From Phytohabitans rumicis (GTDB taxonomy: Bacteria; Actinomycetota; Actinomycetes; Mycobacteriales; Micromonosporaceae), in contig NZ_BLPG01000001.1 in NCBI RefSeq assembly GCF_011764445.1, positions 2,294,001 through 2,358,000 of the forward strand: a stretch of DNA of 64,000 nucleotides. The letters are read 5' to 3'. The notes beneath the pieces are model-generated. The model was not told the origin of the DNA. It made no database searches and worked only from the letters and a program-made list of their open reading frames with translations. Position 1 is the first letter of the stretch. The number at the start of each line of letters is the position of its first letter. Shown in pieces: positions 5,866-54,593 of this stretch. Both the position numbers and the translations under genes were made by a program.

Positions 5866-5970
5866 GCGCCGATCAAGGGCCGAGCCGTCGATCAAGGGCA
5901 AATGGCCGCGGTTTGATCTCCAAACCACGGCCGTTTGCCCTTGATCGACGCGAAAGTCCTTGATCGGGCG
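5866..5970. terminator. Nested GATCAAGGGC palindrome, probable bidirectional terminator
   Basis: A long hairpin has left arm 5886-5915 (begins cgtcgatcaagggcaaa), loop atctc 5916-5920 and right arm 5921-5950, with two mismatched pairs in 30. It is bracketed by further gatcaagg/ccttgatc boxes at about 5869 and 5960, giving a second, outer pairing. It sits exactly between the convergent ends of the permease (5851) and the S1 protease (5979). The same sequence family recurs at 30.0, 30.5 and 54.5 kb. Confidence 0.8.
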
Positions 5971-28722: not shown

Positions 28723-29967
28723 ATGGCTATGCCCAATAGAACGACGGTCACCTGGCTCACTGGCAAGATCCCACCGGCGTTGGTGGACCTGCTCCGGGCC
28801 GACGTGCTCGACTCGGTGGCCGAGATGGTTCAAGAGATCCAGGCGCACGTGCCGGAGTACGCCCCACCGGACGACGACAAGTTCGCCCGTGGGCTGCGGC
28901 GCGGCGTCGAGATGGCCTTACGCCGCTACGTCGAGCTGCTCGACCAGCACGTCGGGCACACCGGGCCGGCCGCCGTGCGGGACGGTGACGGCATCGACTG
29001 GCGTGTGGTGTACCACGCGGCCGGCGCCAACGAGATGCGCGAGGGGCGCAGCCTGGACGCCTTGCACGCCGCCATCCGCCTCTGCGCCCGGGTGGCGAAC
29101 CGGCGGCTGCGCACGTTCGCCGAGCGCCACGCGATGCCGCCGAACGCGGTCGCGTGGCTCGCCGAGGCGATCTTCGACAATGTCGACGACGTGGCGCGGG
29201 CGGCGACCGACGGCTACGCCCAGGCCCAGGAGGCCGAGGCCGGCGAGCTGGACCGGCGCCGGCGCCGGCTGCTCGACCTGTTCATCGCGGACCCGCCGCC
29301 CTCGGCGAGCGCGCTGGCCAACGCGGCAGCCGCGGCCGGCTGGCGATTACCGCGCCGGCTCGCCGCCGTCGCGGTAGCCGGGCCGATCGCCCAGCCACCG
29401 GTCATGTCGCCGGAGATCCTGGCCGCGTTCGACCACACCCGGCCGTGCCTGATCGTGCCCGACCCCAAGGGACTGGCCCAGGTCCGAGCCCTGGAAAATG
29501 GCCTGTCCAGCTACCACGCCGCGGTCGGGCCGGCGGTGTCCCCTGTGGACGCCGGCAAGTCGCTACGCTGGGCCCGGCTCGCGCTGGACCTGTCCGCCAA
29601 GGGGCTCATCCCGCACCAGCCCATCATCTGGTGCGGCGATCACCTGGCCGCACTCGCCGTCTTCCAGGACCAGGCGCTGCTCGCCACGCTCACCGAGCGG
29701 CGGCTCGCGCCACTGGCCCACCTGCGCGAGGACAAGCGCGAACTGCTCGCCGACACCCTGCTGGCCTGGCTCAAATTCAACATGAACGCCAACGAGGTGG
29801 CCGCTCATTTGCACGTGCACCCGCAGACCGTGCGGCACCGCCTGCGCCAGCTCGCCCAGCTCTTCGGCAACCAGATCCGCGACCCGGACCTGCGCTTCGA
29901 GCTGGAGATCGCGCTACGCGCCGAACGCGCCCGGAACATCCGCCGCGCCCGCACCGCCGCCAGCTAG
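28723..29967 (+). CDS. PucR-type transcriptional regulator, copy 2
   Basis: This encodes 414 residues, a close paralogue of the preceding gene along its full length (shared REGRSLDALHAAIR, SLRWAR, HVHPQTVRHRLR and PDLRFELEIALRA). ATG 28723 is supported by GGGAGG about 8 bases upstream; an in-frame start at 28642 would add 27 unrelated residues. It is separated from copy 1 by 139 bases. The pair arose by tandem duplication. It ends in a basic RARTAAS-type tail. Candidate binding sites are the GTTGTCACC palindromes in the two biosynthetic promoter regions. Confidence 0.87.
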   Translation: MAMPNRTTVTWLTGKIPPALVDLLRADVLDSVAEMVQEIQAHVPEYAPPDDDKFARGLRRGVEMALRRYVELLDQHVGHTGPAAVRDGDGIDWRVVYHAAGANEMREGRSLDALHAAIRLCARVANRRLRTFAERHAMPPNAVAWLAEAIFDNVDDVARAATDGYAQAQEAEAGELDRRRRRLLDLFIADPPPSASALANAAAAAGWRLPRRLAAVAVAGPIAQPPVMSPEILAAFDHTRPCLIVPDPKGLAQVRALENGLSSYHAAVGPAVSPVDAGKSLRWARLALDLSAKGLIPHQPIIWCGDHLAALAVFQDQALLATLTERRLAPLAHLREDKRELLADTLLAWLKFNMNANEVAAHLHVHPQTVRHRLRQLAQLFGNQIRDPDLRFELEIALRAERARNIRRARTAAS

Positions 29968-30024
29968 CCCGCCCGCGCCCCCTCTCGTGCCCCTTCTCGT
30001 GCCCCGCTCGTGCCCCGCTCGTGC

Positions 30025-30110
30025 CCCTCTCGTGCGTCGATCAAGGGCATATGGTCGTGCTTTGATCTCCAAACCACGACCGTTTGCCCTTGATCGACGG
30101 CGAATTCCTT
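30025..30110. repeat. 86-bp GATCAAGGGC hairpin repeat, left copy
   Basis: The core hairpin has arms 30035-30064 and 30070-30099 with loop atctc. The 86 bases 30025-30110 are, as read by eye, identical to the reverse complement of 30514-30599. It lies 57 bases after the PucR copy 2 stop and can serve as its terminator. It is the same family as the hairpins at 5.9 and 54.5 kb. Confidence 0.85.
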
Positions 30111-30202
30111 GATCGGCGCGCGGTGGACAGGCGACCGCACGACCGCACGACCGCGATCAGCCCCCGGCCGCGCCGGGAGCTCCACCCGGCACCCACACCC
30201 GT

Positions 30203-30261
30203 GTGACTGGAACACCAGTGCTGTTATCCGACCGCCATGACAGCACTGGTGTTCCAGTCAC
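30203..30261. repeat. Perfect 22-bp-arm palindrome
   Basis: Left arm 30203-30224 (gtgactggaacaccagtgct, then gt) is matched exactly by right arm 30240-30261, with a 15-base loop. It lies inside the segment bounded by the two 86-bp inverted copies, so the locus has nested dyad symmetry. Confidence 0.85.
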
Positions 30262-30314
30262 GCCCCAGGGCTGCCTTTTCTGCGGCCTCCGGCTGCCGAT
30301 TGAAGATGGAGATT

Positions 30315-30383
30315 GAGCTACCGCGACGTCCGTCGCGGTCCGGGCCGTTGCTCCCGCGGCCGCACCCTTCGCGGTTGACGACC
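30315..30383 (+). repeat. Dispersed 69-bp intergenic repeat, copy A
   Basis: The sequence starts gagctaccgcgacgtccg and contains gctcccgcggccgcaccc. Two further copies occur at 54628-54694 (same strand) and 54841-54907 (opposite strand). Translated in one frame all three give ELPRRP-x-x-x-x-P-x-LPRPHP. Because the copies lie in intergenic palindromic clusters, a repeat rather than a gene is the likelier reading. Confidence 0.7.
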
Positions 30384-30513
30384 CATACCCCCGGGCGGGC
30401 TTGTCTCGCGGACCTGGCAGCGTAGGTCGGGGATTTCGGCTCGCTCTGCGAGCCGCCGACCTGCGCGGTGCCCGCGGGAGCATGCGGCCCGCAGGTGACA
30501 CGGACCGGGGTAA

Positions 30514-30599
30514 AAGGAATTCGCCGTCGATCAAGGGCAAACGGTCGTGGTTTGGAGATCAAAGCACGACCATATGCCCTTGATCGACGCACGAGAGGG
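30514..30599. repeat. 86-bp GATCAAGGGC hairpin repeat, right inverted copy
   Basis: This is the exact inverted counterpart of 30025-30110. Arms are 30525-30554 and 30560-30589, with loop gagat. It ends 7 bases before the stop of the VWA gene and so can terminate the NRPS-MbtH-VWA transcript. Confidence 0.85.
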
Positions 30600-30605
30600 C
30601 GGGGG

Positions 30606-32266
30606 TTAGCGGGGTGGGGCGGCGGTTTTGATGAGGAAGTCGAGTGCTTCGAAGAACACCTTTCGGATGCCGGCTCCGTCCCGGGTCAGGAACGTCCGCC
30701 CGCCCGTCGTGTCGCTGATCGCCTCCAGGGCGGGCACGTCGACGTCCGTCCCGATGCCGATGAAGATGATCGGCAGCGGTCGGGCCGGGTCCTGCAGGTT
30801 GTCCAGCTTGTCGACCAGCTCGCCGAGCCCGATGCCGTACGGGTCGTTGTCGTACCCGTCGGTGGCGATCAGGACGAGGTTGAGGCGCCCCGGTTTCCAC
30901 AGCCCTCGGGCCTGGCGGTACGCCGCGAGCGTGGTGTCGTAGAGCCCGGTCTGGGCGCCGAGCACGGTCCGCAACGCGTTGAGCGCGGCGAACACGTCGC
31001 CGCGCTGCTCGAACAGCGGCACCAGCGGCAGCACCTCGCGAAAGTCGCGCCCGCCCTCCAGATCGGCGGCGAACTCCCACACCGCGACCTCGGTGGTGTC
31101 GCGGAGCATGCCGAGCATCTGCCCGGCCGCGGACACCGCCGCGGCGAGCCGGGTCTCCCCTCCCCGGCCCCGATCGCCATGGAGCCGGACACGTCCACGA
31201 CGCTGTGCATGCGGGCGCTCAGGTTGACGCCGGCCCAGTCCCGCAGCGTTTCGTCCACAGTGGCCGGTGGGGGCAGCGGGGCCGGCTGGATCGCCGGCCC
31301 GCCCTCCCGTACCGGCGCGCCGTCCGGGGTCCGCAGGCCGACCTGGGACAGCGCGCCCGCCCCGCCGTCGCGCACCGCGGCCAGCAGCCGCTCGGCGATG
31401 GTGCGCTGGGCGTCGCTGGCGCCGGGCAGCACCACGAACGGATAGTCGAGCGCCGGCGTGGCCGGGTCCGGGTACACCGGGATGAGCGGCGCGTTGCCGC
31501 CGAGGGCGTTGTACGCGAGGATCGCCTGCTCGCTGCCGAACAGGCCCTCCAGCGCCTCGGGTGCGTCCCCGCCGACCCGGGACAGCAGGTCCGCACCGGC
31601 CGGCGCGGCGGTGCGGGACAGCCGCCGCAGGATCTGGGCGTTCGCGGCCCCGGGGTCGTCGGTCTCGCCGGCGAGCCGCCGGATCTCCAGCAGGCTGAAC
31701 AGCCCGACCGGGTCCACGGCCGGGTCTCGCAGGCCGAGGGCGCGCGCCGGCCCGGCCCGGCGCAGCAGCGCCGCCCAGGTCAGTGGCGTCTCCGGCGCGC
31801 CGAGGTCGGTGGCGACCGCTTCGGTCACGGCCAGGACGACCGGCGAGCTGGCCACCGACGTACCCGTGTCCGGGACCTCGACCTCCCCGCCGCCCGCCTG
31901 CCGCAGCCACCAGCTGGACTCGGGCAGCCACGCGTGCGGCAGCCCGGCCGGCCGGCGGGCCGACAGCCGGTCCGCGACGGACGCCGATTCCAGCGCCTTC
32001 ACGGTGATCCGGAAGCAGCCGTCGGCGGTGTCCGCCGGCACGTCGGCGGCCGCCCGGGTGACCAGCGGGGCGATCGCCGGCGCGGCCGCCACGTCGACGA
32101 TCAGCGGGTTGGCGCAGCCGTCCGAGCCGATGACGCCGCTGGCGTACCCGGCGCCCAGCGAGCCGAGCAGGACGGCCCCGAGCGACGCGCCGACCACCAC
32201 CACGAACGACGAACGGACCGCGATGGCGGCGCGATGCGCCGGGCGGTACCGGAGGAAGAACTCCAT
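30606..32266 (-). CDS. Membrane-anchored solute-binding plus VWA domain protein (one-base frameshift)
   Basis: The restored protein has about 553 residues: a basic N-terminus, a membrane helix (FVVVVGASLGAVLLGSL), an extracytoplasmic solute-binding-like domain (about residues 50-330), then a von Willebrand A domain with MIDAS motif DVSGSM, LVLIATDGYDND and IIFIGIGTDVDVPAL. The frame break is at CCCC 31157-31160; one base restores GAGEGETRLAAAV. It starts 10 bases after the MbtH stop and so appears to be the third gene of the NRPS operon. Actinobacteria encode many such proteins of unclear role. A product-binding or envelope function is speculative. Confidence 0.82.
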
Positions 32267-54488: not shown

Positions 54489-54593
54489 CGTCGATCAAGG
54501 GCTTGCGCGTCGATCAAGGGCAAAGGGTCGTGGTTGGATCTCTTTTCCACGGCCGTTTGCCCTTGATCGACGGGAAAGTCCTTGATCGACGCG
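54489..54593. terminator. Nested GATCAAGGGC palindrome after the arabinanase
   Basis: Inner arms run from 54508 (cgtcgatcaagggcaaa) and end at 54572, with imperfect pairing near the loop. Outer boxes cgtcgatcaag at 54489 and cttgatcgacg at about 54581 pair around it. It begins about 24 bases after the GH43 stop, as expected for a terminator. It is the fourth copy of the family seen at 5.9, 30.0 and 30.5 kb. Confidence 0.75.

Follow-up and report, generated by a model that had tools for sequence, protein, structure and literature searches.

Why does the window, a stretch of 64,000 nt of Phytohabitans rumicis DNA (contig NZ_BLPG01000001.1, 2,294,001 to 2,358,000), carry two exact inverted copies of an 86-bp hairpin-forming block between the ends of two genes, and is the arrangement a mobile unit, a transcription signal or a member of some wider family of repeats? 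The features referred to below are as follows (positions in the window).

28729-29967, plus strand: PucR-type regulator gene (PF13556), convergent with the vWA gene
29979-30034, plus strand: pyrimidine-rich array of units of about 11 nt (CTCGTGCCCC), on the head side of the left H
30025-30110, plus strand: left 86-mer copy, made up of a 10-nt pyrimidine-rich head flank, the 65-nt hairpin H and the start of the tail
30036-30098, plus strand: 63-nt core of the left H, loop GATCTC
30107-30118, plus strand: half-site T (CCTTGATCGRCG), on the tail side of the left H
30203-30261, no strand assigned: inner palindrome M
30304-30513, plus strand: inner dispersed repeat L, its right end abutting the right H copy
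30514-30599, minus strand: right 86-mer copy, without a T half-site and 6 nt from the stop codon of the vWA gene
30526-30588, minus strand: 63-nt core of the right H
30606-32266, minus strand: gene with vWA and solute-binding domains, the last of a minus-strand run, reading frame broken
5887-5949, plus strand: another H copy
54509-54571, plus strand: another H copy

The window pair and its neighbours

The two 86-nt blocks are 100% complementary and lie 403 nt apart, and each contains a 65-nt hairpin (30035-30099 and 30525-30589) with 30-nt arms, 90% complementary, and a 5-nt loop. The RNA fold of 30025-30110 (-52.4 kcal/mol, z -10.8) was equalled by none of 200 shuffled sequences and the single-stranded DNA fold of the whole 575 nt (z -21) by none of 100. 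The first-pass annotation was right to call the blocks exact inverted copies, each itself a hairpin. It had also placed a palindrome with 22-nt arms and a dispersed repeat between them. A palindrome (M) is indeed present, but its arms are 25 nt long and 96% complementary; M-like palindromes also lie within two other inverted H pairs in the 1.2-Mb sample described below. The dispersed repeat (L) is real: the sampled part of this genome contains a 91% copy at another place, and copies that are shorter or weaker turned up both in that part and in stretches from four related genomes. The right end of L was found in four copies (the window, one more in this genome and those in genomes G002 and G004), all of which stop at an identical point (CACGGACCGGGGYAAA), and the sequence beyond it is unlike in the three copies outside the window. 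No Rfam family among 4227 gave a match at gathering score within 29900-30700. Many H copies carry a different pyrimidine-rich tract where the array stands in the window; as a speculation, such tracts might act as Rho loading sites.

The pair sits between the 3' ends of the PucR-type regulator gene and the vWA gene, and the latter is preceded in its minus-strand run by a long NRPS gene (named by eye from the sequence, as in the first-pass annotation) and an MbtH-like gene. Because it is flanked by two gene 3' ends the pair stands at the tail of the NRPS/MbtH-like/vWA run and not at its promoter. The vWA gene is read in two overlapping frames, with the break judged by eye to lie at about 31130-31200, and this split is probably a sequencing indel or a recent frameshift. 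A search with the vWA fragment for relatives in named genomes gave no confirmed match.

A dispersed family of hairpins

Both 86-mers are members of a dispersed hairpin family, H, that has hundreds of copies in this genome. The search with the 86-mer that the first-pass annotation had proposed returned at least 86 matches with both strands counted and the best 40 of 581 candidates scored. Exact 14-nt H arms occur at 201 places (the control gave 0). A pattern of loop plus arm that takes orientation into account matches at 244, and with arms of 12 nt the count is 320; four copies lie in the window. The genome was sampled as 60 stretches totalling 1.2 Mb, which hold 127 copies. All 127 are 63 nt long, under a pattern allowing 61-65, and all have the loop hexamer GATCTC, which sets their orientation, and in 56 the arms have no mismatch to the pattern. 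The ends (CGTCGATCWAGGGC) and the loop (TTGATCTC) are conserved and the mid-stem varies between genomes.

H has a polarity, given by its loop, its tail and its pyrimidine-rich head, and a strong preference for gene 3' ends. The half-site T stands on the tail side of most copies in this genome, and the pyrimidine fraction per 60 nt is 0.64 to 0.69 in the head flank against 0.42 to 0.46 in the tail flank, independently of the direction of the neighbouring gene. The contrast is weaker in Micromonospora sp. CPCC 205371 (G001; 0.62 vs 0.51), and it stands at 0.62 vs 0.45 in the loci of other species. A strand-specific RNA hairpin was considered and rejected: G.U cells do exceed A.C cells in the plus orientation (146 vs 101), but the energy difference between sense and antisense RNA is not significant (p 0.14), a result that also counts against the reading we prefer below. 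In H the variable columns follow a 3-base rhythm, and the substitutions look synonymous. A coding role was nevertheless rejected because the frames of the upstream genes are close to random (27/18/26).

Genomic location of H

With genes called by a home-built model, 107 of the 127 sampled copies lie outside called genes and 20 inside; the called genes that contain these 20 are probably spurious. The copies outside genes are concentrated in convergent gaps (57 of 107, against 21.2 expected from intergenic length), with 42 in tandem gaps (53.5 expected) and 8 in divergent gaps (32.4 expected). Counted by gap, with a minimum gap length of 60 nt, H is present in 40 of 73 convergent, 32 of 239 tandem and 7 of 163 divergent ones. 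In G001, where the loci had been picked for containing H and the gene model was the one trained on the genome of the window, 24 of 46 counted copies are convergent and 16 of 22 convergent gaps hold H.

Copies are not evenly spread along contig C1. Two long stretches are almost devoid of H, 0.4-1.77 Mb with 3 copies and 6.6-7.97 Mb with 4, each sampled as ten 20-kb pieces (400 kb and 7 copies in all, against 127 copies in 1.2 Mb). These samples nevertheless contain 28 convergent gaps; several of the samples have a lower G+C content. With dnaA, taken as a mark of the origin, at 4.435 Mb, neither stretch is at the origin.

Orientation of neighbouring copies

Among the 40 pairs of H copies that are neighbours within 1200 nt in the sample, 25 are +-, none -+, 7 ++ and 8 --, and the corresponding counts in G001 are 18, 0, 3 and 2. 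From the ratios of 25:0 and 18:0 it follows that the tails of inverted neighbours faced inward in every pair. Beyond these two genomes close neighbours were seen twice, as +- in M. phaseoli and as ++ in a MAG. One of the inward-facing pairs lies in a tandem gap, and in two relatives the orthologs of the genes on either side of it are on the same strand. Direct orientation, seen in 15 of the 40 close neighbours, counts against our preferred reading. Single copies behave differently: of 21 in convergent gaps 16 share the direction of the nearest gene (p 0.027), whereas in tandem gaps 10 of 20 are sense and 10 antisense. The even split in tandem gaps speaks against a strand-specific terminator, and the two results together suggest that the inward rule belongs to pairs more than to transcription.

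Spacers between neighbouring copies run from 111 to 933 nt and have sequence in common in only part of the cases, some inverted pairs having an inner palindrome in common. Members of another palindrome family, I (GTGAGTAGGGCGCCCC...GGGGCGCCCTACTCAC), are mostly placed between paired H copies (for example at C1 2480703-2480892 and 8175061-8175176); in 15 of 16 places, that of the query included, family I is on the tail side of the nearest H, and no H is nearer than 34 kb to the 16th. The BIMEs of E. coli, inverted REPs that enclose inner motifs and occupy 3' intergenic regions, have short spacers; H pairs resemble them in layout and differ from them in spacer length. Inward-facing neighbours were also found in five cases 1.2-6 kb apart, and inspection by eye of the first 120 residues of each gene inside these wider pairs revealed nothing like a transposase.

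Distribution and stem covariation

A pattern search of 250 genomes of Micromonosporaceae found H in three (320 copies in the genome of the window, 49 in G001 and 1 in G048), which have the ends and loop in common and differ in their stems. A covariance model built from 17 sequences, with at most 36 candidates scored per genome and with a palindrome able to count once per strand, matched 19 of 150 family genomes (that of the window included) in 12 of 44 genera, a patchy distribution. Nine genomes that we call H-rich, with at least 22 model matches, stand out: G000 (the window's own), G001, G015, G048, G058, G067, G068, G087 and G093. Among other members of the genus G005 has six weak model matches and G002-G004 have none, and DNA and pattern searches gave no H in any of the four genomes G002-G005. 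When 84,980 genomes (a set that may leave out the genome of the window) were scanned with the ends-and-loop pattern, the 72 stretches that matched came exclusively from Micromonosporaceae, with matches in M. phaseoli, M. endophytica, M. sp. U21, M. sp. CPCC 205371 and two MAGs. None was found in viral contigs or plasmids.

Across genomes H is under structural constraint, and its mid-stem is kept paired by compensatory change. In an alignment of 13 genomes, each represented by one copy, pairing holds in 91.1% of cells and both sides have changed in 14 of 26 pairs; covariation scores 0.412, as against 0.138 for shuffled alignments (0 of 500 as high), and slid controls reached at most 0.095. Within the window's own genome the variable stem columns have no covariation beyond their marginals, and column-shuffled copies fold equally well (-42.97 vs -42.88 kcal/mol), which counts against our preferred reading. 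Another palindrome, found in this genome and in G005, has an outer GTGATC that is the same in both and an inner CAAGTCGT part that is similar, with different mid-stems; its pattern of conserved ends and changing stem resembles that of H.

Transcription signal or mobile unit

The first alternative is that H is a host-encoded bidirectional terminator or 3'-end processing signal that was spread by selection and gene conversion and not by transposition. Its attraction is plain from the preference for 3' ends and convergent gaps, the great stability of the hairpin and the tendency of convergent singles to point like the nearest gene, but we consider it unlikely. No match to the covariance model was found in 131 of 150 family genomes, and in the one convergent gap that could be compared cleanly H is present here (349 nt) and absent from four relatives (15, 29, 743 and 77 nt). 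Tandem contexts have no orientation bias, and 29900-30700 has no U-tract, a search of this region for intrinsic terminators (a G+C-rich hairpin followed by a U run) having found 0 where 0.6 were expected. A copying process would also be needed to account for hundreds of similar copies.

The first-pass annotation had raised a transposable composite as one origin of the pair, and a related alternative, which we regard as improbable, makes each inward-facing pair a composite or MITE-like mobile unit with H as its terminal repeats and a variable cargo. Inward polarity at 43 to 0 and the position of family I on the tail side of H are what such a unit would predict, yet 46 of the 127 sampled copies lie outside called genes with no neighbour within 1200 nt, the spacers differ in length and have only in part a common sequence, and L occurs also in related genomes in which DNA and pattern searches give no H. 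Nor was there a sign of target duplication of the kind associated with MITEs and insertion sequences: in 55 copies taken from other species, exact repeats between 3 and 8 nt long, at offsets from 0 to 5, were in no excess over shuffles. A search for Y1_Tnp (PF01797) found no match in the genome of the window, in six genus genomes (0/6) or in the nine H-rich genomes (0/9); among 14 control genomes the same search matched 5, and in a further set of 24 it matched 4, none of them H-rich. A RAYT or other Y1 transposase was consequently rejected as the mover, and the composite was not borne out, given the missing target-duplication signal (in other species), the missing Y1 transposase and the differences in spacer between pairs.

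One divergent intergenic region aligns with four relatives lacking H there, which points to gain. Where the half-site T stands in this genome, the relatives have GATCA or GATGA. Part of the flank has been replaced as well, however, so that the relatives do not offer a clean empty site, and this counts against our preferred reading.

Origin of the window pair

The first-pass annotation had taken the perfect identity of the two copies as a sign of recent duplication or gene conversion, and in this it is supported. The 63-nt cores of random H pairs are on average 88.4% identical, with 0.07% of pairs fully identical, and the mean rises to 91.6% for inverted neighbours (p 1e-4) and 93-94% for direct neighbours; among the 25 inverted pairs that of the window is alone in having an identical core, and its 10-nt head flank is identical as well. 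The left head flank is the last unit of the tandem array. As the array is present on the left only, and as the right copy has no T and abuts the end of L, the right copy, we infer, derives from the left one some hundreds of bases away, through recent conversion or local copying. The possibility that L had inserted into the T half-site of the right copy was rejected, in-script removal of L having given no identity run longer than 90 nt. That the pair is an assembly inversion or duplication artefact, as the perfect 86-nt identity and the broken vWA frame next door (which suggests that the assembly may carry errors) could hint, is scarcely credible, since the flanks of the two copies differ, the same layout is found again in 25 sampled pairs of this genome and in 18 of another species' assembly, and the published P. 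rumicis genome is described as PacBio-sequenced, like those of P. houttuyneae, P. suffuscus and P. flavus (PMC7692728).

Nature and possible function of H

The reading that we prefer, with a probability of roughly 0.65, is that H elements are REPIN-like repeats without a RAYT which are tolerated, or used, as 3' hairpins. Their high-copy, mostly extragenic inverted ends with a fixed spacer give them the layout of a REPIN. REPINs are REP doublets that form hairpins and are thought to be moved by RAYTs, which are Y1 transposases (Bertels and Rainey 2011, PMC3116915), and as characterized in the relevant parts of that paper they resemble H in their many intergenic copies, conserved inverted ends, fixed-length spacer and compensatory changes in the spacer. 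H differs from them in that its ends are not themselves palindromic, its loop is conserved and no Y1 transposase occurs in the nine H-rich genomes; compensatory changes, moreover, are found between genomes (in 14 of 26 pairs) and not beyond the marginals within this one. Of the features of RAYT-associated REPs, H lacks palindromic half-arms (shuffled sequences fold as well as either half of the window copy, z -0.82 and 0.00) and a cognate RAYT. With the layout of a REPIN, halves that are not palindromic and no cognate RAYT, it is here filed as a REPIN-like element and not as a RAYT-REPIN.

A second point of comparison is provided by the CGTC-tagged REPs, which have an 8-9 bp stem, a loop of 4-5 nt, an unpaired CGTC tag and a CCA-like tail (Di Nocera 2013, PMC3733652). 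As portrayed in the sections of that paper dealing with them, they are like H in starting with CGTC, in lying downstream of genes or between convergent genes, in the dominance of one inverted dimer orientation and in having no known dedicated transposase, whereas H has 30-nt arms, its CGTC is paired and it has no CCA-like tail. The same sections leave open how REP families without a transposase spread, and the word actinobacteria does not occur in the main text (PMC3733652). No title among the matches listed in the open-access literature describes the H repeat.

If H is a REPIN-like repeat, it would have spread as non-autonomous DNA with the help of an enzyme other than a Y1 transposase or RAYT, or of one since lost, and copies near promoters or inside genes would have been purged. 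At a convergent gene pair each mRNA would then end in one H hairpin, which may blunt read-through and antisense transcription and protect the 3' end, and a transcript crossing both copies could fold into a long duplex. Judged from sequence and position, a hairpin at mRNA 3' ends and mutual insulation of convergent genes are the putative functions to which H points. The bidirectional transcription barrier proposed in the first-pass annotation is consistent with the 3'-end, convergent location of the pair, as a putative role.

More tentatively, Micromonosporaceae may carry an unrecognised REPIN-like class without a Y1 transposase, in which an unknown factor would read the conserved ends and loop, the stem would be a genome-specific signature turning over in concert, and insertion or retention at gene 3' ends would obey a strict inward orientation around palindromes; we think this somewhat doubtful as a whole. 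For the question of how families without a transposase spread, H offers a clean case, with hundreds of copies, several genera and related H-free species for comparison; the boundary between what is conserved and what changes is sharp, and all 43 inverted pairs keep to the inward rule. It is also a large natural set in which to study the blocking of read-through at convergent ends in high-GC bacteria, including beside biosynthetic genes.

One H copy stands at the 3' end of a four-gene block (C1 8287437-8291835) that has no close ortholog in the stretches from G002-G005. The proteins of this block are 85-93% identical to their counterparts on C27 of G001, and the block looks horizontally shared.
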